From Oryzomonas sp. (lineage in GTDB: Bacteria; Desulfobacterota; Desulfuromonadia; Geobacterales; Pseudopelobacteraceae): a stretch of 64,000 nt of DNA. The stretch lies in contig JARLHN010000018.1 of NCBI GenBank assembly GCA_031292255.1, positions 62,001 through 126,000 on the forward strand, read 5' to 3'. Each line of letters starts with the position of its first letter. The first letter of the stretch is position 1. Shown here piece by piece: positions 8,750-23,457 of the stretch. The position numbers and the translations under genes are program-made. The notes under the pieces are model-generated. The model did not search any database, was not told the origin of the DNA, and saw only the letters and a list, made by a program, of their open reading frames with translations.

Positions 8750-9324
8750 TTTTATCGAGATACTTCTTCCAGAACATCGGCGATTCAACATGAGATACTG
8801 ATGGGCCATATTTATCAATTACTTGAACCTTATTTCTCGGCTGATTTTCGTTTGAAGACGTTCCGCAGAATGCATTAAACACCAAGCTTTTGATCACGTT
8901 TAGTCAAGGCGTTGGTCGCTAATCAAGTTGTTCGAGTCCGTACCGAGTCCCCGAGTGTGACGCTCAGCAAAACTTTTTCACTCACAATTTCAGATTCCTG
9001 ATGAATCCGAGTAAGAAGAACTATCCAAGAACGGAGTATCTATTCCAGAGACTCTCTTGCTATATTTGAGACAGACTGAGAATCCGCCGCATCTGCAATA
9101 CAATCTTGGCACCATTTACCTGTTTTAACGTGTTGAATTTTCTCGCAGGCTGCGTTACAAAATGTGGTAGATAGTCTTTTCTGCCGAAATATTGAAACAA
9201 TTGACAGAATAGATATTGTCGTTTTATTCGCCGAACAAATATGAAAGCGCTGGGCGAAAGTAGCCGATACGCGGGCGGCCCTGAAGCAAGAATAGATGGC
9301 TGCACTGGAAAGGAAGAACTGACC
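8750..9324. other. Intergenic, no supported gene
   Basis: The 575 bases are fairly AT-rich. Short frames on both strands carry no recognisable motif or good ribosome-binding site. The long upstream extension of the next gene (from ATG 9241) lacks family similarity. Confidence 0.4.
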
Positions 9325-10299
9325 TTGGGAGATGTTATTATTTATCAGGCCGATAATGGCCAAACCAGCCTTCAGGTTCACCTCGACCTAGAGACCGTCT
9401 GGCTTTCGCTCAATCAGATGGCTGATCTTTTCAGTCGCGACAAATCGGTTATCTCCCGGCATCTGCACAATGTTTTCCGGGAAGGAGAACTTACCCACGA
9501 TTCAGTTGTTGCAAAATTTGCAACAACTGCCGCAGACGGTAAAACGTACCAAGTTGAATATTTCAACCTCGATGTCATCATCTCCGTTGGCTACCGGGTT
9601 AAATCCCAGCAAGGCACCCGCTTCCGCCAGTGGGCAACTCAGGTTCTGCGCTCACATATCGTCAACGGCTATACGGTCAACGAGCAGCGGTTGCGCGAAC
9701 AGACTGACAAGCTAACCGAAATGCACCAAGCCATGGAACTACTGGCTCGCACACTTGCCAATCAGGAATTGGTCAGCGAAACCGGCAAGGATGTGCTGGG
9801 GGTCATCACCGACTACGCCTATGCCCTGGCGCTTTTGGACCGATACGACCACGGCACCCTGGCAATTGAGGGAACCACTCTACAAGAGCCGCATGTCTTC
9901 GGTTACGACGAAGCAATTGGCATTGTGGCAACCATGAAAGGTGAGTTCGACGGCCTATTCGGCATTGAGAAAGACCAGGGATTCAAAAGCGCCATCGGGG
10001 CCATCTACCAAACCTTCGGGGGCGATGAACTTTACCCCAGTGTTGAGGAAAAGGGGGCAAACCTCCTCTACTTCGTCATCAAGAACCACGCATTCAGCGA
10101 TGGTAACAAAAGAATTGCCGCCGCCTTGTTCATCTACTTCCTTGGTATGAATGGCATCCTCTACCGCCTTGACGGCAGCAAGCGGCTGGCCGACAACGCA
10201 TTGGTGGCCTTGACGCTCCTCATCGCCGAGAGCCGACCCGACGAAAAAGACACCATTGTCAAAGTTGTTGTGAATCTTATTAATCGTAAAAACGACTGA
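9325..10299 (+). CDS. RhuM-type protein fused to a Doc/Fic domain
   Basis: The N-terminal half (about residues 5-150) is a RhuM/virulence-protein domain, recognisable by VWLSLNQMADLF, the KSVISRHLHNVF stretch and the GYRVKSQQGTRFRQWAT motif. The C-terminal half is a Doc-like Fic domain with HAFSDGNKRIAAALFIYFL, which keeps the HxFxDxNKR catalytic loop. Family knowledge: Fic proteins AMPylate targets, and Doc phosphorylates EF-Tu as a toxin. Such fusions are found in accessory regions and are thought to act in defence or toxin-antitoxin settings; the activity here is inferred. A TTG at 9325 preceded by AAGGAAG fits the usual family start better than ATG 9241, which would add 28 unrelated residues. 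No adjacent antitoxin gene is seen. Confidence 0.85.
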   Translation: MGDVIIYQADNGQTSLQVHLDLETVWLSLNQMADLFSRDKSVISRHLHNVFREGELTHDSVVAKFATTAADGKTYQVEYFNLDVIISVGYRVKSQQGTRFRQWATQVLRSHIVNGYTVNEQRLREQTDKLTEMHQAMELLARTLANQELVSETGKDVLGVITDYAYALALLDRYDHGTLAIEGTTLQEPHVFGYDEAIGIVATMKGEFDGLFGIEKDQGFKSAIGAIYQTFGGDELYPSVEEKGANLLYFVIKNHAFSDGNKRIAAALFIYFLGMNGILYRLDGSKRLADNALVALTLLIAESRPDEKDTIVKVVVNLINRKND

Positions 10300-10636: not shown

Positions 10637-11626
10637 TCAGCATTTTTTTCTCTGAAGCCCCGTAATTATCAAGTGCATCGCTATCGGCATCATCACGAAA
10701 ATACCACTGCCGATAAAAAGAAACTTCTTTGAGATTTCATAACCATAGTTCATCCCAATCACCCCCAAAAGTGCAACTTCCACCACATTCAGGAATATAA
10801 TCGCGAACAGTCCGACAAGCGCATGCGGTATGGATTTCCGGTTGCGCCACAGAAAAGGTGACATCACTCCCACATAGACTGCAATGGTGATTATTTCAAA
10901 GGATAATCCCACCTGAAGCGATCCTTCTCCTTGCCGGTAAAAGAGTGCATGGTCCCAGATCACAGATGCCATTGAATTTGCTGAAAAGAGTTTGAAAAAA
11001 AGTGAAGCCTGTACGGCCAGCAAGCGAGAATACGATTCCTTGAACCTGTAAAGCAGAAAAAATGTGACTGTGCAGATCGCAGCAGTCAGAGCGCTCTGCC
11101 GGATTGTCTTACCGGTCAACCTGAATTCCCTGTCGGCCCAGACTATCCAGATGGAAAATACCAACAGGGCAAAAATGACAGCCCAGACATATTCATGGAC
11201 AAAAAGCGTCAGGTCGAGAGAAATAGGCCCGATCAAGCCGAGGACAATCAAGCGGATCGCGTTGACGATCAGCAGAATACCCGTTGCTGCCGCAATTCCG
11301 CTTAACCGGTAAAGAAGAGAGTGTCGGGCATATAACAGGATGGCGAGCGCCAGGATGAGGATGTAATTCAGAGCGGTGCATTCTCCGGCGATCCGCAAGG
11401 GGAAACCGTTGGTATAGAGAATGTCGTCGCTGCTGGTCATGGTCATGCCGAGAATGCTGCCCACCACCTTGGTGAAGGCAATTGTGAAGTGTTGTACCGG
11501 TGGCAAAAGTGGTGTTATCAGCCTGGAAGATATGACCGCTGCAATGATCAGCAGCAGAACAAAACCAATCCCTTGGGGAAGGTGGGAATGTGCCCTCGGG
11601 CTATTTGCGGGATTTCCAGTAGCCAT
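10637..11626 (-). CDS. Exosortase-family transpeptidase with a duplicated, degenerate second half
   Basis: This is a 329-residue polytopic membrane protein. The first half has the exosortase/archaeosortase signature: Cys83 in GECTALNYI, Arg125 in NAIRLIVLGLIG and His144 in FVHEYVW. These are the proposed cysteine-protease/transpeptidase residues that cut C-terminal sorting tails in the inner membrane. Residues 200-325 look like a second copy of the same fold: NVVEVALLGVIG aligns with NAIRLIVLGLIG, but the three key positions read Ser242, Glu283 and Lys300. The ATG at 11626 lies inside the 3' end of the small sorted protein (26-base overlap), suggesting translational coupling. A longer frame to 11791 exists but runs over that gene. 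I cannot assign a named Xrt subtype. Confidence 0.85.
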   Translation of the reverse strand: MATGNPANSPRAHSHLPQGIGFVLLLIIAAVISSRLITPLLPPVQHFTIAFTKVVGSILGMTMTSSDDILYTNGFPLRIAGECTALNYILILALAILLYARHSLLYRLSGIAAATGILLIVNAIRLIVLGLIGPISLDLTLFVHEYVWAVIFALLVFSIWIVWADREFRLTGKTIRQSALTAAICTVTFFLLYRFKESYSRLLAVQASLFFKLFSANSMASVIWDHALFYRQGEGSLQVGLSFEIITIAVYVGVMSPFLWRNRKSIPHALVGLFAIIFLNVVEVALLGVIGMNYGYEISKKFLFIGSGIFVMMPIAMHLIITGLQRKKC

Positions 11627-11816
11627 AGCCCGCAATCGCAACTGTTGTAACGATGAGGATTCCGTCTCCCCCCAAGGGTGCCGTGATAATACCCGAGCCG
11701 GAGCCGGTTGTGCCCGGTGGGCCGGGAGGTCCTGCCCAGCAGGTCTGGGTAATGTCCAGAACCACAATTGATGCAAGTGCAAGCAGTTCAATGATCTGGC
11801 TGGTTCTTTTGCGCAT
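11601..11816 (-). CDS. 71-aa secreted protein with exosortase-like C-terminal sorting tail
   Basis: The ATG follows AGGAG at eight bases. Residues 1-28 form a signal peptide. A short Gly/Pro linker (GPPGPPGTTGSGSG) leads to P47-L-G-G-D-G52, then a hydrophobic segment (ILIVTTVAIAGYGYW) and a basic end KSRK. That is the three-part layout of PEP-CTERM-like sorting signals: motif, membrane helix, basic tail. After both ends are removed only about 20 residues remain. The gene lies 14 bases after the upstream gene and overlaps the exosortase start, so it is the obvious dedicated substrate. The Gly-Asp-Gly motif and the YGYWK ending resemble tails of Bacteroidetes-type exosortase substrates more than classical PEP-CTERM. 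This is inference; no cleavage has been shown. Confidence 0.7.
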   Translation of the reverse strand: MRKRTSQIIELLALASIVVLDITQTCWAGPPGPPGTTGSGSGIITAPLGGDGILIVTTVAIAGYGYWKSRK

Positions 11817-14508: not shown

Positions 14509-15238
14509 ATATTTAACCTCTCAGGCATTATATCAAGTGAAATATTAATTCTATTTACACGATCTTATTTTATTATGTAAAATATTAACAAAGTCCAACA
14601 AGGCTGCCTATTGATCAATTAACAGCTTATTTGTTGCTTGTACTGTACCGTCTCCAATTCAAATAAATTAATTTTTTGTCCCATCATGAATAATAAACTG
14701 GATCTTGATAGCAATGATGATGCCGGGATAGGGGTGGGGATGATTGCATCTTTATGGGGGCGATAGCGGTTTAGGTCTCTTTCAGATAACCCGTCCTTAT
14801 CGTAGCGGTCCATGTCGAGCTTTGAACAATAATCATTTTCACTCATGTGGATTGCAATAAAAGTAAGGCTCATCTTGTCGCCACCTTCCGAGGAAGAGAG
14901 GGTCAATATTTTCGACAACAAATTAAATTTATCAGATTCGATTTTATTCGTAAAGCCATTAGTACGATAGAAGTCCCTCCAGCTTTACCGGAGACTTCAG
15001 CAGCTTGACCGTTCCGGGATAAAGTGCAAGCCTCCCAGTTGTGAACCGCTCAAAGTTCCCAGCAAAGGAGGCTTCCGTTGACGAACATTGAAAGCTTATG
15101 CCATTGCAGCATGGGGGTTCAAGTACCACATTATTTGTATATTGGCACCTCAATGCCTTTTATTGAAGCAATATAACCAAAATCTTTGGGGTACGATTGA
15201 AATTTTGCATAAACTGCGTTAACTGTGATTCTTGTCAC
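14509..15238. other. AT-rich intergenic region
   Basis: This stretch separates two divergent surface-protein units. It is AT-rich next to the adhesin start. Minus-strand frames at 14619-14921 and 14959-15153 have no recognisable domain, and the second reads like a decayed C-terminal gene fragment (KLLKSPVKLEGLLSY). I see no convincing gene. Confidence 0.4.
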
Positions 15239-15269
15239 TTGAATTCTTGTCGTTTTTTAGTACTATAAA
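15239..15269 (+). promoter_or_regulatory. Possible sigma-70 promoter for the riboswitch leader
   Basis: TTGAAT at 15239 and TATAAA at 15264 are separated by 19 bases, slightly longer than ideal. Transcription would start near 15276, about 15 bases before the first aptamer. Confidence 0.35.
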
Positions 15270-15289
15270 CAATAAAATCAAAAAGCATC

Positions 15290-15376
15290 AAGATAGACGA
15301 TAATACTAAACCATCCGCAAGGGTGGGACGGAAAGCCTATTGGGTCTCATCGAGACAGCCGGGTCGCCGAAATATC
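15290..15376 (+). promoter_or_regulatory. GEMM-I riboswitch, predicted cyclic AMP-GMP type (GEMM-Ib)
   Basis: The GEMM-I core is complete: AATACTAAACC, a P1b stem CCATCC-GCAA-GGGTGG with a GNRA loop, the conserved GACGGAAAGCC joiner, a P2 hairpin (GGGTCTC/GAGAC) and the receptor side AGCCGGGTCGCCGAAATATC. The base equivalent to G20 of the Vibrio Vc2 aptamer is A (15305). This substitution marks the cAMP-GMP-sensing Geobacter subclass (established knowledge). GATA at 15292 can pair with TATC at 15373 to close the aptamer. That pairing competes with the terminator just downstream, so ligand binding should turn expression on. Confidence 0.92.
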
Positions 15377-15404
15377 ACAAGATATTCCGACCCGGCTTTT
15401 TTTT
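15357..15404 (+). terminator. Riboswitch-controlled intrinsic terminator
   Basis: AGCCGGGTCG pairs with CGACCCGGCT, with a second inner stem AATATC/GATATT around an ACAA loop, followed by eight T. The left arm is the 3' part of the upstream aptamer, so aptamer and terminator are mutually exclusive structures. Confidence 0.9.
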
Positions 15405-15448
15405 ATGACGCAACCTTCCGCAGAGAACAGAGAAAACAAAGGGAAACA

Positions 15449-15532
15449 CTTGAAAAAGGCAAACCGCCTGAAAAGACGGGACGCAAAGCCGCTGACCTAA
15501 ATCCCGACGGGATATGGTAGCAGGGATGCCAA
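15449..15532 (+). promoter_or_regulatory. Second GEMM-I riboswitch, predicted c-di-GMP type
   Basis: A second full aptamer starts 45 bases after the terminator. It contains AAGGCAAACC, the stem CCGCCT-GAAA-AGACGG, GGGACGCAAAGCC, and a P2 arm CTGACCTAAATCCCGACGGG (15492-15511) continuing with ATATGGTAGCAG. The G20-equivalent is G (15458), as in c-di-GMP-selective GEMM-Ia aptamers. No terminator follows; a hairpin of GAATTCAGT with ACTGAAATTC and an anti-SD element lie between it and the start codon, pointing to translational control. Confidence 0.9.
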
Positions 15533-15540
15533 GCGAATTC

Positions 15541-15597
15541 AGTACCTTCCAGACTGAAATTCAGCTTAGGCGAACAAACATCAGTCGTGGAGGTACT
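15541..15597 (+). promoter_or_regulatory. Possible anti-Shine-Dalgarno pairing
   Basis: AGTACCT at 15541-15547 is exactly complementary to AGGTACT at 15591-15597, which overlaps the ribosome-binding site GGAGG. The next CC can pair with the GG at 15589 across one bulged T. The same AGT also takes part in the GAATTCAGT hairpin, giving two alternative folds. Confidence 0.55.
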
Positions 15598-15598
15598 A

Positions 15599-16876
15599 GT
15601 GAACACTGCAAGACCAGCCAGGAACGTAAATCTTCCATTTATTCTAGTAATAATATTAGCCGGTTCAGTACTCGTCTCTTCATTTGCCGCGAATGTCTTC
15701 GCCGCCACGGCGAGCCTGTCGTGGGCCGCGCCGACTACCTATACGGACGGGACCCCCATAACCAACCTGGGCGGCTACCGGGTTTACACCGGGACCACAT
15801 CAGGAAGCTATTCACAGAATATCGATGTCGGCAATGTGACATCCTATACCGTAAGCGGTCTCAATAATGCTGCGACTTATTATTTTGCAGTTACGGCATA
15901 CGATGCCTCCGGAGACGTGAGCGGATTTTCCAGCCAGGCATCCTACACCACCCCGGCAGCGCCACCGTCGTCAAACACATACACATTGTCGGCTTCAGCG
16001 GGCAGCGACGGCTCCATATCTCCCTCCGGCTCCACTGTCGTTTCCCAAGGCACCAGCCAAACGTACGCCATTACCCCCAATACCAATTATTATATTGTCA
16101 GCGTATCGGTCGATGGAGCCGTGGTAGCCTCCAATGTAATGACGTACTCGTATACCTTCAGTGACGTGACCGCAAACCATGCCATTTCCGCCACCTTCGC
16201 CTATTGCACCAAACTGATTACGGCGTCCGCGGGCAATGGCGGGACGATCTCCCCGGCATCGGTTTATGTGGACATCGGCTCGTCGCAGACTTTCGCCATC
16301 ACTCCCAGCACCGGCTACAATATCGCGGGTGTCACGGTCGACGGCGCTTCGGTCGGTGCGGTATCCAGTTACACATTCAATAACGTAACGATCCCCCATA
16401 CGATAAGCACGACATTTTCGGCAAATTCTAGCTATAGCATATCGGCTTCAGCAGGGGCAAACGGGAACATTTCTCCGTCGGGCACGGTTTCGGTCGCCGG
16501 GGGGAAGAACCAGTCCTTCACGATAACCCCCACTACCAATTATTATATCGTCAGCGTATCGATCGACGGAGCCGTGGCCGCCTCAAATGTAATGACTTAC
16601 TCTTATACGTTCAGTAACGTGACCGCAAACCATACGATTTCCGCCACCTTCGCCCACTGCACCGAACTGATTACGGTCGGCGCTGCTGCCAACGGATCGA
16701 TTTCCCCCGGCTCAACCTATGTAAACATCGGCTCGTCGCAGACCTTCTCCATCACTCCCAACTCCGGTCACAAGATCTTGGCAGTGACGGTTGACGGCGC
16801 TTCGGTCGGCGCGATATCCAGATACACATTTAATAACGTAACGAAAACCCACAGCATCAATGCAACATTCAAGTAG
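15599..16876 (+). CDS. Secreted Fn3 plus divergent InlB B-repeat protein
   Basis: The best start is GTG 15599, six bases after GGAGG; a GTG at 15587 would overlap that site. A signal peptide covers about residues 1-36. A fibronectin type III domain follows (about 38-125, with YRVYTGTTSGSYS and YYFAVTAYDASGDVSGF). The rest is four bacterial-repeat (Flg_new_2/divergent InlB B-repeat) units of about 70 residues, alternating GSISPSG with ITPNTNYYIVSVSVDG and YTFSNVTANHTISATF patterns. Units 1 and 3, and 2 and 4, match best, so the array grew by doubling. No anchor is visible. The tandem riboswitch leader implies control by cyclic dinucleotides, in line with a surface or biofilm role. Confidence 0.85.
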   Translation: MNTARPARNVNLPFILVIILAGSVLVSSFAANVFAATASLSWAAPTTYTDGTPITNLGGYRVYTGTTSGSYSQNIDVGNVTSYTVSGLNNAATYYFAVTAYDASGDVSGFSSQASYTTPAAPPSSNTYTLSASAGSDGSISPSGSTVVSQGTSQTYAITPNTNYYIVSVSVDGAVVASNVMTYSYTFSDVTANHAISATFAYCTKLITASAGNGGTISPASVYVDIGSSQTFAITPSTGYNIAGVTVDGASVGAVSSYTFNNVTIPHTISTTFSANSSYSISASAGANGNISPSGTVSVAGGKNQSFTITPTTNYYIVSVSIDGAVAASNVMTYSYTFSNVTANHTISATFAHCTELITVGAAANGSISPGSTYVNIGSSQTFSITPNSGHKILAVTVDGASVGAISRYTFNNVTKTHSINATFK

Positions 16877-17217: not shown

Positions 17218-17240
17218 GACTAATGAAGGAGAATCGGACC

Positions 17241-18950
17241 ATGCATAAGAAAGGCACCATCATAACATTTTGCGTCATGGTGATCATGATCGGCATGGCT
17301 GCCACAAGCCATGCCGCCACGAGTTGGTACGTCAGCCCCACGGGGAACGACACCATCGGCAACGGCTCCAGCGGCAGTCCCTGGGCCACCCTGTCCAATG
17401 CCTGCTCCAAGGTGACAAACGCCGGCGACACCATTAACCTCGCTGCGGGCAATTACACGGATAATAATCCTTGCACACTCGGTGCCGGCGTGAACATCGC
17501 CGGAGCGGGATCGGGTTCCACCTACATTACCAGTAGTTACAGCGGAGGATACTACATCACTTTGGTGTATGCCCCCGCGATGAGCGGTGCTGGAACTGCA
17601 AATGGGAATCAGACGATCTCCGGATTTACCCTGGATGGGAACAACAAGGCGCTGTTAAGCGGGATTCAAATTATTGGTTATAACCATGTGACCTTAAACG
17701 ATCTAGATTTTAAACATATTAATGAAGGTGCTATAAAATTGGAGGGTTTAGATAATTGGACAAACATATTGGGAATAAATGGAGAAGATTATAATGTCCC
17801 TCCTCCTTATTATGGACAATACAATACACTGACTAACATAACTATCACCGGATGTTCTGCTGGTTCAACTGCATCTGATCCCTATGGCGCAGTTGGCACA
17901 TCTGTTTGGGTTCACAGTCAACAGTATATGACTTGGAATAATGTCAATATAGATGAAACGCCTTCTACTACAACTGGTGAAGGGTTTCCCGTTGTTAGTG
18001 TGCCTGGGTGGATAAATGCCTCAACAATTAATAATTGCAGTTTCAGAGTTGGTAACTCTGGTTGGGGTGTTACAAACAACGGATCTCCTAGCACTTTTCA
18101 AATGTGGAATATTGAAAACGGGACTATAATTTCCAATAGCAATTTTTATGAGGGATATATTTCTCTAGTGGCAGGGGATATGTGTGGTGGTCAGGGGAAC
18201 GGCAGTAGTTCATTAATAACAAGTTGTTCAGCTACTCGCGCGTTGATATTTCATGATAATAACTTGATAGACACGGCATATCAGGGGGGGACGGGGCATG
18301 AACTGTCACTTTCCAATGCGGAATATTATAACAATTATATAGAAATGGGAACGGCAGGGTTTTGGGTAGCAACCCATTCTTTTAATTTAACTGGTATGAA
18401 TAATATATCTTTTCATAACAATATCGTACATAACGCAAATGGTAATTCAGTTATAATACAAACAGCACCAGCTAATGTAGCTATTTCCGGATTAAGTATC
18501 TATAACAATACTTTTGACACGGCGGCATCTGCTTGGCCTTATAGTGGGATACTTGTCCAAATAGCTAACACATTAACAGGTCTTGCTGTAGAAAATAATA
18601 TTTTTATGAATTTCCCAAGTGGGTATGAAATTTATTTTTATACAGGTTCTACTACTTCTCCAAAAATTAGTTATAATGACTATTATAATACAACAGGTAT
18701 TGATTATATATATAGTGGGGCTAGTGCGCCAGGATTAACAGCAATAAACAATATAACTTCTAATCCTGAGATAGTTGGAACTGGTAGTAAGTACCCATAT
18801 TTCACGGGCACGTATTATCAGTTACAAGCCGGCTCCCCCATGAAAAACGCCGGCGTCAACGTGGGTCTTTCCTTCACGGGGTCCGCTCCCAACATCGGGG
18901 CCGGCAACAGTGTAACACTGTCAGCCCCCACCTCACTGACCGTCCAGTAA
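17241..18950 (+). CDS. Secreted right-handed beta-helix protein
   Basis: ATG 17241 follows GGAG and starts a signal peptide (about 1-26, ending SHAA). The mature protein opens with WYVSPTGNDTIGNGSSGSPW, the usual start of pectate-lyase-like beta-helix proteins, and continues with many N-rich coils such as SIYNNTFDTAA, VENNIFMNFP and SFHNNIVHNAN. It ends with SPMKNAGVNVG and a PNIGAG motif typical of this group. Members bind or cleave polysaccharides; no catalytic residues can be assigned by eye. The ends of the gene are GC-rich like its neighbours, while about 17660-18790 is strongly AT-rich. It lies between the riboswitch gene and the exopolysaccharide locus, so its substrate may be a local polymer (inference). 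Confidence 0.8.
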   Translation: MHKKGTIITFCVMVIMIGMAATSHAATSWYVSPTGNDTIGNGSSGSPWATLSNACSKVTNAGDTINLAAGNYTDNNPCTLGAGVNIAGAGSGSTYITSSYSGGYYITLVYAPAMSGAGTANGNQTISGFTLDGNNKALLSGIQIIGYNHVTLNDLDFKHINEGAIKLEGLDNWTNILGINGEDYNVPPPYYGQYNTLTNITITGCSAGSTASDPYGAVGTSVWVHSQQYMTWNNVNIDETPSTTTGEGFPVVSVPGWINASTINNCSFRVGNSGWGVTNNGSPSTFQMWNIENGTIISNSNFYEGYISLVAGDMCGGQGNGSSSLITSCSATRALIFHDNNLIDTAYQGGTGHELSLSNAEYYNNYIEMGTAGFWVATHSFNLTGMNNISFHNNIVHNANGNSVIIQTAPANVAISGLSIYNNTFDTAASAWPYSGILVQIANTLTGLAVENNIFMNFPSGYEIYFYTGSTTSPKISYNDYYNTTGIDYIYSGASAPGLTAINNITSNPEIVGTGSKYPYFTGTYYQLQAGSPMKNAGVNVGLSFTGSAPNIGAGNSVTLSAPTSLTVQ

Positions 18951-19948: not shown

Positions 19949-21115
19949 TTACACCGATCTGCTTATCCCCTGCGCCGGCCCCGAAACCGCTCTGCCTACT
20001 GCTTCCATAAATCCCTGTACTGCCGCAGCCAGATTATGCTTTTCCATAATCGGTCGGGAGGCTTGCTTCATCATTGCTCTCATCCCGGCATCCAACACCA
20101 GCGTACGCATGGCTTGAACAAATTCCGCGCTATCTTCGGGATCGACTATGATGCCGTTGCCTCTTACGAAATCACGCGCAGCCCCTGCATGGCAGGAGCA
20201 GATCACCGGCAGTCCACAAGCCACCGCTTCCGCCACAACCAGGCCAAAGACATCAAGTCTCGTGGGAAAAACAAAAATATCATGGCTGATAAACTCTTCT
20301 GCCAGACGGTTGGGTTCCATGAATCCTTTAAATTTTATTTCATTGCTACAACCAAGATCATCTGTCATTTTTTTCAAAGAATCGGCGTCTCTCCCTACTC
20401 CAACTATATCCAAACAGATATTGGGAATATCCCGCTTCAGCGCTGCGAAGGCAGTTATCAATAGATCAACCCCCTTGCGAGGAATCAGTTGACCGACATA
20501 AATAAAACGGATTACCCCGTCGGAAGCGCGTTCGAAAGACGTTTCGTCTGCACAAGCAGCAAACGGATCGATATGGGCGCTCAAAATGCTAAGGAATGTC
20601 TTTGAAACAGGATATGCGTATGCTTTGTTAAAAAAATCCAGAGTATCCGATGACGACCCAATCAAAGCATTGGAAAGATAAAGAAGAGCGCGTCGAACTA
20701 TTTTTCGCAGGTTGCCCAAACGGTTTTCCAGCAAAACTATCGTATCAGACCAGGTTATGTAACGACACCCCGATATGAGGCTGTATAACGCAGCCAGCAT
20801 GCATTCCGTTCGGAATTCATAGGCAACTATCACTTGAGGGTCAACATCACGCAAGGCTTTGAAAAGTCCTGATGGAAAACGAATGGTATTTGTATCGCCG
20901 AATACGTTACGATATCTGTATTTCAATAACGTCCTTGATTTCAGGAACACAGCCTTGAAAGGCTGAACTTCCCCGATCGGCAACGTTCCGAATTCGGCAT
21001 CCGAACAGAAGATCACCGTCAGATCTACATCCCCGCGCTCGGCTAAGCCGCGAAAGAGCGGCAGGCGGTACGGCGCGTACCATGCCATAACAATGGCAAC
21101 TTTGATCTTAGTCAT
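19949..21115 (-). CDS. Glycosyltransferase, GT4 family
   Basis: This 388-residue GT-B protein has an N-terminal acceptor-binding half (VAIVMAWYAPYRLPLFRGLA) and a C-terminal donor-binding half. The donor half begins at IRFIYVGQLIPRKGVDLLI (about 223) and has the retaining GT4 signature DVFGLVVAEAVACGLPVICS near 312. It would add a sugar from a nucleotide donor to the lipid-linked repeat unit at the cytoplasmic face. I chose the ATG at 21115 with AGGTGATGG upstream; GTG 21124 and ATG 21121 are alternatives. It is the last transferase gene in the run of minus-strand genes from wza. Confidence 0.88.
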   Translation of the reverse strand: MTKIKVAIVMAWYAPYRLPLFRGLAERGDVDLTVIFCSDAEFGTLPIGEVQPFKAVFLKSRTLLKYRYRNVFGDTNTIRFPSGLFKALRDVDPQVIVAYEFRTECMLAALYSLISGCRYITWSDTIVLLENRLGNLRKIVRRALLYLSNALIGSSSDTLDFFNKAYAYPVSKTFLSILSAHIDPFAACADETSFERASDGVIRFIYVGQLIPRKGVDLLITAFAALKRDIPNICLDIVGVGRDADSLKKMTDDLGCSNEIKFKGFMEPNRLAEEFISHDIFVFPTRLDVFGLVVAEAVACGLPVICSCHAGAARDFVRGNGIIVDPEDSAEFVQAMRTLVLDAGMRAMMKQASRPIMEKHNLAAAVQGFMEAVGRAVSGPAQGISRSV

Positions 21116-21155
21116 AACCATCACCTCACGGATATTTTGGGAGCCATAGGGCCTT

Positions 21156-22211
21156 TCAGATTGCTGATTTTCCAGGCGAACCGTGGATTTTGACCTTTGA
21201 ATAAAGAAGGGCCAGGTTGATAATCATTCGATCCAGGTAAAAGAGTGGAATTATAAAGAAAAAGATGATCCCTGCATTGACGCCGATCCTGCGTCTTCGT
21301 TCCACCAGAAGCTTGAATTTTTTGCAGCCTGAGGGAAAGTGCCGATGCAGGGATCCCCGAAACAGTCCGATGGAGACGACCAGCATCAGCAAAAGGGCAA
21401 GCAGTGCGAGAGGGACCAGGTTGCGGCTCGGCGTCACCACGAAGGCAATGAGCACGATAAATAGCCATAAAACCGAGAACGGCTCCAACAGGATCTGTAT
21501 CAGCGTCGACTTGGTTGCATGAAATTGCGATTTGCCTCTGCGGAACGCCCAGGGGATGAACTGCCTGAATGTATTTCTCGTCTTGTGATAGACGAACACA
21601 TCTGGTTCATATTCGATGACATATCCGGCTTGAAGAAACCTTTCACACAGATTTACATCTTCTTTCCCATATTGCAACGATTCATCGAACCCGCCAACTT
21701 TCAAAGCCCAACTTTTACGGTAGAGAGAGCAGCAGCTTCCAATCCAGTTCACTCCGCGCGTAAGGAACTCCACTTCCGAATCGAAACCAATGGCACCGCC
21801 GGCTGGTTTGCCTAGACATGCAAAGCATTTCCCCAGAAATGGCGAATCAGGAGGGGGATAGGCATTACACCCAACAGCTGCAACATCGGGTAGAGTGATT
21901 TTCGGCACGAGCCGGTTCAGCCAGTCGGGAGTAGCTATGCAATCCGCATCGAGGAATGCAACAAGCTCATGGCTAGCGCTCCTAAGCCCCATATTCCTGA
22001 CGACGGGAAAGTCCCTGCAGTTCGACAGCAAAAGCCTCACCTTTTGGTAGCTGCGGACAATATCGGGAGTTTTATCGCTGGAACTGTCAACAACCAGGAT
22101 CTCCAGCTTTTCTTCGGGATAGTCGAGGGCCTGCAGTGAGTTGAGACAATCGGCCATGTTTTTCTCTTCGTTGTAAGATACTATAACCACCGAAATTCCT
22201 GGCAAGTGCAT
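21156..22211 (-). CDS. Glycosyltransferase, GT2 family, membrane-anchored
   Basis: The GT-A domain spans about residues 1-230. It carries ISVVIVSYNEEKNMADCLNS at the start, VVDSSSD at about 40, the metal-binding ELVAFLDADCIA near 85 and a YGKEDVNLCERFLQAGY acceptor motif near 192. The C-terminus has hydrophobic segments near 245-280 and 315-335. RBS AAGGAGAAAGCA is excellent. GT2 enzymes of this shape invert the donor linkage and act on lipid-linked oligosaccharides. The gene sits between two GT4 genes with short gaps (22 and 40 bases), so it belongs to the exopolysaccharide operon. Confidence 0.88.
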   Translation of the reverse strand: MHLPGISVVIVSYNEEKNMADCLNSLQALDYPEEKLEILVVDSSSDKTPDIVRSYQKVRLLLSNCRDFPVVRNMGLRSASHELVAFLDADCIATPDWLNRLVPKITLPDVAAVGCNAYPPPDSPFLGKCFACLGKPAGGAIGFDSEVEFLTRGVNWIGSCCSLYRKSWALKVGGFDESLQYGKEDVNLCERFLQAGYVIEYEPDVFVYHKTRNTFRQFIPWAFRRGKSQFHATKSTLIQILLEPFSVLWLFIVLIAFVVTPSRNLVPLALLALLLMLVVSIGLFRGSLHRHFPSGCKKFKLLVERRRRIGVNAGIIFFFIIPLFYLDRMIINLALLYSKVKIHGSPGKSAI

Positions 22212-22233
22212 TGCTTTCTCCTTCCGAAGATGA

Positions 22234-23457
22234 TCAAAGAAGCTGCAGATAAATCGACTCCAAACGGGCGGCCAGGATCCCCCAGGAATACCGGGTGCAC
22301 GCCAGCATGCGCGCCTTGTCGCCCATTTTTTCGGCCAGCCAGCTATTTTTCAGGAGAATGGCGATCTTCGCCGCGAAATCTTCAACACTCTGATCCGCAA
22401 CGAGCCCTATGCCGTTGGTTTTGACAACCTCGGCCACATCGCCGACATCGTTCATGACCGTGGGCCGACTGCTCGCCATGTACTCTCCCATCTTGTTCGG
22501 CCAACGGGTCTTGTTGGCCAGATTTTCCCTGAGCGGGAGCACATGAACGTCCGCCGCAGCCAAATAGAGCGGCAGCAGGTCATCAGGGCACCGCCCGGCT
22601 TCAATGCAGGCGTCCGCCACGCCGACCTCGGCAGCTAATTCCTTGGTCCAGCCGTACGACGTCCCCACTACCAGCAGATAGGCGTCGGGGATCTGCCTTT
22701 TGACCAGGGCAAAGCTTCTGATGACCATATCCAGGTCCATCTGAAAGGTCCCCAGGAAACCCACGATCTTTCCCGTGACCGGTAGCCCGAGCCTGCTCCT
22801 CGCCTCGGCCTTCGGCAATGGGACGATATTGTCGACATCCGCCCCACCCTCCACGACAAAAACCCGATCTTCCGCCACTGAGTTGTCAATGGCAAACTGG
22901 CGCAGCTTTGCCGAGATAGCCGTGACAGCCGCGGCCTTACGGCGCAGGTCGAACTCCAGGAAATGCGACAGACGCCTGAACGGGATGCCTATTTTCCGGT
23001 AGAGGGGATCGAGGCGGTAGCCGTAGGTGTCACGCAGTCCACCCTCGTAGTGGTAGACGTCGCACCAGTCGGAAACAAATGCCGCCTTCCCCCTTCCCGT
23101 ATTGAGATAAAAAGGGAGGGCTACATTCAGGGAGTGGTCGAAAGTCTGCACGATATCGTACGCGTCGGTCCTGATCTCCCTGATCCTGGCGGCCACATCG
23201 AGGAAGCCGGTGCCGGGTTCCAGGAACAGCCTGCCGGTAAAGGCCCCAAAGGCATGGTGCAGGAAGTTCGGGGTCTCGACAGTTCTGAACCCCGAGCCCC
23301 ACGAGGTGAGCGAAGAAAACCTGCTCTGTGGCGAAACCGCCATCAAGGTCACGGCATGCCCACGCAACGCGAGTTGCCCGGCCAGTTGCCGGGCACGGAC
23401 GTGGGTTGCCGTCCCTTTCATCTGGGAGAGGAGGAAAAGGATCTTCAACGGCTTCAT
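22234..23457 (-). CDS. Glycosyltransferase, GT4 family
   Basis: This 407-residue GT-B enzyme begins KILFLLSQMKGTATHVRARQ. Its donor domain contains KIVGFLGTFQMDLDMVIRSF (about 232) and a late motif WPNKMGEYMASSRPTVMNDV near 320, which takes the place of the usual EAxACG loop, so the second glutamate of the classical E(x7)E motif is less clear. The start overlaps the stop of the polymerase gene by four bases (ATGA), showing tight coupling. Its role is addition of one sugar of the repeat unit; the specificity is unknown. Confidence 0.85.
   Translation of the reverse strand: MKPLKILFLLSQMKGTATHVRARQLAGQLALRGHAVTLMAVSPQSRFSSLTSWGSGFRTVETPNFLHHAFGAFTGRLFLEPGTGFLDVAARIREIRTDAYDIVQTFDHSLNVALPFYLNTGRGKAAFVSDWCDVYHYEGGLRDTYGYRLDPLYRKIGIPFRRLSHFLEFDLRRKAAAVTAISAKLRQFAIDNSVAEDRVFVVEGGADVDNIVPLPKAEARSRLGLPVTGKIVGFLGTFQMDLDMVIRSFALVKRQIPDAYLLVVGTSYGWTKELAAEVGVADACIEAGRCPDDLLPLYLAAADVHVLPLRENLANKTRWPNKMGEYMASSRPTVMNDVGDVAEVVKTNGIGLVADQSVEDFAAKIAILLKNSWLAEKMGDKARMLACTRYSWGILAARLESIYLQLL

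Follow-up and report, generated by a model that had tools for sequence, protein, structure and literature searches.

Can a single bacterial leader RNA read two nearly identical cyclic dinucleotides, cyclic AMP-GMP (cAMP-GMP) and cyclic di-GMP (c-di-GMP), and combine them into one decision about one gene? The question is raised by a leader within a 64,000-nucleotide (nt) stretch of Oryzomonas sp. DNA (the window: assembly GCA_031292255.1, contig JARLHN010000018.1, positions 62,001-126,000 of the forward strand), in which two GEMM-I aptamers stand in series ahead of a gene. Two full GEMM-I cores had been predicted here from the letters alone, and when the whole window was compared with 4227 Rfam families by cmscan both were recovered as full-length matches (1-87 of 87) to RF01051 (GEMM-I, c-di-GMP-I) above its gathering score of 35: aptamer 1 at 15295-15371 on the + strand (47.1 bits, E 4.5e-6) and aptamer 2 at 15448-15533 on the + strand (79.3 bits, E 6.1e-14). 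The second core, on whose fit to the covariance model the original prediction had staked itself, is the stronger match. A further model, R1, which was built with both sequences included, gives them 60.3 and 82.6 bits, respectively. Chance occurrence is ruled out by the cmscan E-values and by the recurrence of the arrangement in other genera (see below). The leader holds a real and recurrent heterotypic tandem riboswitch and, as far as ligands can be predicted from sequence, it likely senses two messengers.

On the RF01051 model alignment the equivalent of G20 of the Vc2 aptamer is A15305 in aptamer 1 and G15458 in aptamer 2, the same bases as in the original prediction; in Vc2 numbering, A47 is the base stacking between the ligand bases. 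Aptamer 1 also keeps the A47 and C92 equivalents (the latter C15367), a combination with A20 that agrees with GEMM-Ib and makes it a predicted cAMP-GMP sensor. The two pairs adjoining its position 20 are C-G/U-G, where the consensus has G-C/C-G, and its P3 is short, without the 11-nt tetraloop receptor. Aptamer 2 has the features of a canonical c-di-GMP-I aptamer and c-di-GMP as its predicted ligand: besides G20 it has A at the A47 equivalent, C15529 at the C92 equivalent, a P1 helix formed by 15449-15452 with 15530-15533, and a GAAA loop with the 11-nt receptor CCUAA...UAUGG. The G/A position is reported to contact the ligand and to set preference in GEMM-I (PMC9481103). The original prediction took an A at this position to mark cAMP-GMP selectivity; the A is indeed present, but exclusivity was overstated, as protonation of the adenine lets cGAMP (cyclic GMP-AMP) riboswitches bind c-di-GMP as well (PMC9262584) and a Desulfobacca A20 aptamer gained affinity for cAMP-GMP while perhaps losing only little for c-di-GMP (PMC9481103). 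Changes in the lower part of P2 also affect the selectivity of cGAMP riboswitches (PMC9262584).

The platforms of the two aptamers differ as well. The 3' strand of aptamer 1 (GCCGGGUCG), including C15367, is also the 5' arm of an intrinsic terminator (15358-15404, + strand), a strong hairpin followed by eight U (15397-15404). Because one strand serves both structures, binding of cAMP-GMP would prevent termination, which suggests the ligand-ON architecture that had been predicted. A simple consensus scan missed this terminator and listed none on the + strand within 14800-16500. A hairpin starting within the 3' strand of the aptamer was found in 18 of 18 A20 aptamers examined, 16 of them in leaders of this class (including L140, described below) and two in a neighbouring leader of L015. 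The U-run passes the threshold of our script in 17, being too weak in L015:270, and where it is present the script gives hairpin energies of -18.3 to -27.8 kcal/mol.

After a spacer (15372-15447, +) that overlaps the 3' part of the terminator comes aptamer 2, which has neither a U-run ahead of the start codon nor a terminator. Four strands follow in order. Strand 1, the switching strand (15528-15542, +), consists of C92, the 3' strand of P1 and CGAAUUCAG; strand 2 (15541-15557, +) is the arm complementary to the Shine-Dalgarno (SD) region, the anti-SD arm; strand 3, the anti-P1 strand (15552-15571, +), pairs with strand 1 in an alternative hairpin (1:3, 15528-15571, -16.2 kcal/mol); and strand 4, the SD arm (15581-15597, +), carries GGAGG at 15589-15593 and pairs with strand 2 (2:4). 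The absence of a terminator and the presence of an anti-SD at the second aptamer are as originally proposed. The regulated gene (15599-16876, +, GTG start at 15599) encodes 425 amino acids with an FN3 domain and divergent InlB B-repeats (Flg_new_2), and we read its N-terminal hydrophobic segment as a putative signal peptide.

How widespread is this arrangement? RF01051 was searched for first in 24 and later in 141 genomes of the order, and among the best matches listed several of the strongest (71-86 bits) have a weaker match 76-181 nt upstream. In at least ten leaders, from seven genera and two families of Geobacterales, a single canonical G20 aptamer comes after one or two A20 aptamers at this spacing: the window, L015 (Geobacter sp. 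H2geo), L016 (Geobacter sp. AOG1), L017, L023 (Geomesophilobacter sediminis), L025 (Geomobilimonas luticola), L044, and L029, L032 and L033, with two A20 aptamers each. In an eleventh (L140:6090-6804, from a metagenome-assembled genome of Geobacteraceae) three near-identical A20 aptamers precede a decayed second aptamer, with C at position 20 and UUUCC for UGCC. A pattern for the second aptamer had 13 matches in 12 of 141 genomes (8 of 29 genera), and its reversed control had none. A20 aptamers lie close upstream of 10 of these 13, and all 13 upstream aptamers are A20 (16 of 16 when the three of L140 are included), in line with the prediction of different ligands in one leader. No A20 aptamer was detected upstream of the second aptamer at L018, L052 and L063, and other strong matches lack the arrangement, as in L024 (84.8 bits), where no second match was found in the leader. 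When contigs were scanned with a pattern, likewise built from known leaders, that leaves position 20 free, at least 117 loci were obtained, with G 99 times, A 18 times and C once among the matches listed (at least 118). At least 11 loci are from Geobacterales; among the 11 listed, eight have A20 upstream, with G20 in the second aptamer of seven and C in that of one (L140). In the other 106 listed loci no A20/G20 pair was seen, several of these lying at contig ends with the upstream DNA out of view.

An FN3-type, secreted-looking gene follows the second aptamer in 13 of 13 leaders (the ten mixed ones, L140 and two with no A20 upstream), by reading of the translations; of five of these proteins searched with Pfam, three have fn3 above and two below the cut-off. 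Within the genus of the window the second-aptamer pattern matched its own genome only (one of six). In G001, G002 and G005, three further genomes of this genus, genes with weak similarity to the window protein (E 2e-5 to 6e-4) are preceded by A20 aptamers but by no second canonical aptamer, and the second sensor thus looks like a module that was added or lost.

Recent duplication followed by point mutation is ruled out as the origin of the pair, since identity between the two aptamers within a locus is no more than 0.56-0.66. In the class and its neighbours identity is 0.92 among 20 A20 aptamers, 0.81 among nine G20 aptamers and 0.62 between A and G, and by this measure the two aptamers belong to different subfamilies rather than to a fresh duplication.

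We consider it probable, with some reserve, that the leader is a two-input riboswitch pair in series, whose output is cAMP-GMP AND NOT c-di-GMP. On what is presumably a single transcript, aptamer 1, putatively of the Geobacter cAMP-GMP type, would act at the transcription step, where binding of cAMP-GMP would prevent termination (ON). If c-di-GMP is absent, the free strand 1, including its ligand-pairing C, would pair with strand 3 once the latter is transcribed and before the SD emerges, and the 1:3 hairpin, which crosses and partly overlaps the 2:4 hairpin, would keep the SD open for a while (ON). If c-di-GMP is bound, strand 1 would be locked in P1, the 1:3 hairpin excluded and the SD buried by 2:4 (OFF). 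The FN3/InlB-repeat protein would then be produced at high cAMP-GMP unless c-di-GMP is high too.

The translational part of this proposal was examined in 13 leaders, namely the ten mixed ones, L018 and L052 (as L186 and L172), which have no A20 upstream, and L140; L063 ends too early. The SD/anti-SD duplex beats dinucleotide shuffles in 12 of 13 (p<=0.037; L186, p=0.216). The SD and P1 helices together are 87.5% paired, against 31-49% when slid, and among five covariation measures the score (0.251, versus 0.196+/-0.019 in shuffles) was reached by 0 of 500 shuffles and the measure of cells paired by 4 of 500. The strand 1:strand 3 duplex has p<0.05 in five leaders (the window, L139, L103, L186 and L044; Fisher 1.9e-5). 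In constrained folding, the window SD costs 6.5 kcal/mol to open, and 12.5 kcal/mol once strand 1 is removed; in each of the 12 leaders whose second aptamer is intact (the ten mixed leaders and the two having the second aptamer only), opening is costlier by 1.9-8.7 kcal/mol with strand 1 occupied. In L140, with its decayed second aptamer, this coupling is lost, removal of strand 1 lowering the cost by 1.0 kcal/mol. Shuffling of the interior weakens the coupling between strand 1 and SD at p<=0.05 in 8 of 13 leaders (Fisher 5.5e-6). In growing transcripts, the minimum free energy (MFE) structure just before emergence of the SD contains the 1:3 hairpin in 11 of 13 leaders, the exceptions being L085 and L092.

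Several observations weigh against this reading. At equilibrium, the full-length MFE structure without ligand buries the SD in 13 of 13 leaders, so that the open state in the absence of c-di-GMP must be kinetic or held by the ribosome; taken with the 1:3 hairpin seen before SD emergence, this agrees best with a kinetic OFF switch at the level of translation. Even in the decayed L140 the 1:3 hairpin is present ahead of SD emergence. The strand 1:strand 3 duplex is not significant in the other eight leaders (p 0.069-0.537), nor is the interior shuffle in five (L172, L085, L092, L140, and L044, in which only 3 nt could be shuffled). Two of the five measures for the SD and P1 helices were reached by many shuffles (pairs changed on both sides by 34 of 500, pair types by 131 of 500). 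Column-wise covariation was rejected as proof of the anti-P1 helix, as its score (0.113, versus 0.095 in shuffles) was reached by 78 of 500; the helix has bulges that shift between species, with pairing kept in single changes (A98:U140 in AOG1 versus U98:G140 in A14_2059), and the case for it is built on complementarity and energetics in the individual leaders. Because the loci are related, combined p values are optimistic. The energies exclude tertiary contacts and pseudoknots; a pseudoknot with both 1:3 and 2:4 formed is conceivable. The second-aptamer pattern was built from leaders already seen and, in contrast to the other scans, fixed G20. In relatives, the model that best fits the A20 aptamers is c-di-GMP-I-GGC (RF03167), with 43-52 bits at a relaxed threshold, below its gathering score of 59; its consensus, though, has G where these have A20. 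In the window scan only RF01051 passed for aptamer 1. If A20 aptamers can bind c-di-GMP, as the work cited above indicates, the two inputs may also cross-talk.

One may also consider other explanations. The original prediction proposed an AND gate, in which cAMP-GMP switches transcription on, c-di-GMP switches translation on, and both are required. Such a gate would make use of the same two aptamers of different predicted ligand and the same SD-sequestering hairpin, and many known c-di-GMP-I switches are ON switches. However, no helix was found that would let a bound aptamer 2 free the SD, strands 2 and 4 are unobstructed once P1 is formed, and in all 12 intact leaders the computed coupling is of opposite sign, with the SD predicted to be buried on binding. 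Since a ligand-held strand 1 favours a hidden SD, AND NOT is likelier than AND, and the AND gate appears quite unlikely.

An alternative that we regard as unlikely is a single-input, pseudo-cooperative tandem, in which both aptamers answer the same messenger because A20 tolerates c-di-GMP or G20 tolerates cAMP-GMP. It would be in keeping with the c-di-GMP binding of cGAMP riboswitches and of the Desulfobacca aptamer, and with the other GEMM-I clusters among the matches listed, which are mostly homotypic: at least 15 are all-G (L019-L022, L042, L102, L115, L192-L199) and at least four all-A (L015:12+270, L016:4417+4676, L103:6193+6441, L075), versus the mixed L051, these comparators having been picked by their visibility in the match lists, with members up to ~500 nt apart. 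(Position 20 is G in L102 and L115 by model alignment and in L112 by eye.) Yet A20 is kept upstream in 10 of 10 mixed leaders across seven genera, the two aptamers belong to subfamilies far less alike than the A20 aptamers are among themselves, and the two platforms control different steps, in directions predicted to be opposite. It is very unlikely, in our view, that aptamer 2 is uncoupled, either because an internal promoter yields a separate c-di-GMP-only transcript or because aptamer 2 is decaying. The variable distance between matches in mixed leaders, the three second aptamers without a detected A20 upstream and the decay in L140 would fit such a scenario, whereas the spacer of the window is short and no other RF01051 match in its genome scores as high as aptamer 2. 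A simple scan also found no sigma-70-like + strand promoter between the aptamers, but this is a weak argument, as it found none upstream of aptamer 1 either, and a single transcript is thus not demonstrated by the scan.

If the output is indeed cAMP-GMP AND NOT c-di-GMP, are both messengers to be expected in this organism? Its genome has 34 GGDEF matches, and 26 of the 30 with loci show the motif searched. Two are Hypr-type, with the Hypr serine in NDxxGHLVGS (L218, with GGDEF, and L219, with GGDEY), and a further one, L223, has threonine. Given many GGDEF proteins, two of them with the Hypr serine, both messengers are plausible. Geobacter sulfurreducens uses cAMP-GMP when growing on particulate metal oxides, whereas c-di-GMP is linked to its growth as a biofilm on electrodes and seems to inhibit the synthesis of cAMP-GMP (PMC6456294). 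Transcripts under GEMM-Ib control drop there on deletion of gacA (PMC6456294), consistent with an ON architecture. That species also has GEMM-I tandems with cAMP-GMP ON control (e.g. GSU2885, omcAHG), in which termination increases without the cyclase GacA; these are labelled GEMM-1b (PMC6456294), whereas the second aptamer of the window is G20 and has a translational platform.

Each half of the proposed device has a counterpart among single aptamers described in PMC9262584: the G. metallireducens pilM cGAMP switch is a terminator ON switch that sequesters the ligand-pairing C, like aptamer 1, and V. cholerae Vc2 turns translation off in a way that hinges on P1, the mechanism that we propose for aptamer 2. 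The closest two-input logic is that of Desulfobacca acetoxidans, where GEMM-I variants of both cyclic-dinucleotide types, with preference shifted by one position-20-type change, occur beside adenosylcobalamin (AdoCbl) aptamers with putative terminators (PMC9481103). There, AdoCbl/c-di-GMP-I and AdoCbl/c-AMP-GMP are separate clusters, whereas in the window both predicted types share one leader. Tandem aptamers of one family are also known: 347 c-di-GMP-I doublets and 12 triplets have been counted, and treated as identical-ligand and pseudo-cooperative (PMC9481103). The available parts of two tandem-riboswitch surveys, including the gate table of PMC9481103, contain no cAMP-GMP/c-di-GMP pair in one leader. 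Among the literature titles searched none is about such a pair, the 2015 PNAS founding papers being outside the scope of that search. A triple tandem of c-di-GMP-I-family aptamers has reportedly been found in B. thuringiensis (PMC4759541).

Some further observations concern GEMM-I aptamers elsewhere. The genome of the window has 14 RF01051 matches, by eye six A20 and eight G20. Seven (L005, L006, L008, L009, L011, L012 and L013) form a GEMM-I subfamily with a flipped C-G pair adjoining position 20; at least five of its members are G20 and two are A20 (L012, which is aptamer 1 of the window, and L013), and a ligand switch may have taken place inside this subfamily. The GAYAATACTAAACC type is common in the genus: the core of a crystal construct, used as a query with 1-3 mismatches, matches in five of six genomes, and the window's own genome had no match to it at that tolerance. 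On the minus strand at L051:1501-1846 an A20 aptamer precedes a G20 aptamer, each followed, by eye, by a terminator-like hairpin with a U-run, and the gene behind them encodes a small protein that looks secreted and, by eye, similar to spore-coat-U proteins. Heterotypy is thus not unique to the present leader class, L051 being a mixed pair of another architecture. On a Desulfobulbaceae contig (L075:2436-2632) two canonical-type aptamers lie 3 nt apart and both are A20, a possible cAMP-GMP tandem outside Geobacterales.

Elsewhere in the window are a secreted-looking 575-amino-acid open reading frame (ORF) downstream of the regulated gene (17223-18950, +), whose 569-amino-acid form has no Pfam match, a RhuM-family domain fused to a Fic/DOC domain (9241-10296, +), an exosortase (EpsH) gene (10640-11791, -) with, near it, a run of ORFs that look glycosyltransferase-like by eye (19949-23457), and a group II intron match (RF00029, 37587-37660, -, 53.5 bits).

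What would such a leader mean? We lean, if narrowly, towards seeing in it a conserved natural RNA comparator of two antagonistic messengers, built from two divergent versions of one aptamer fold and acting first as a transcriptional ON switch and then as a kinetic translational OFF switch. If this is true, it would mirror at the RNA level the reported inhibition by c-di-GMP of the cAMP-GMP cyclase GacA. Surveys that lump c-di-GMP-I subtypes as one ligand, as PMC12452182 does, would hide heterotypic pairs and could miss such gates. Several genera offer ready-made test RNAs, and a leader that reads both messengers would show directly how cells keep two nearly identical messengers apart.

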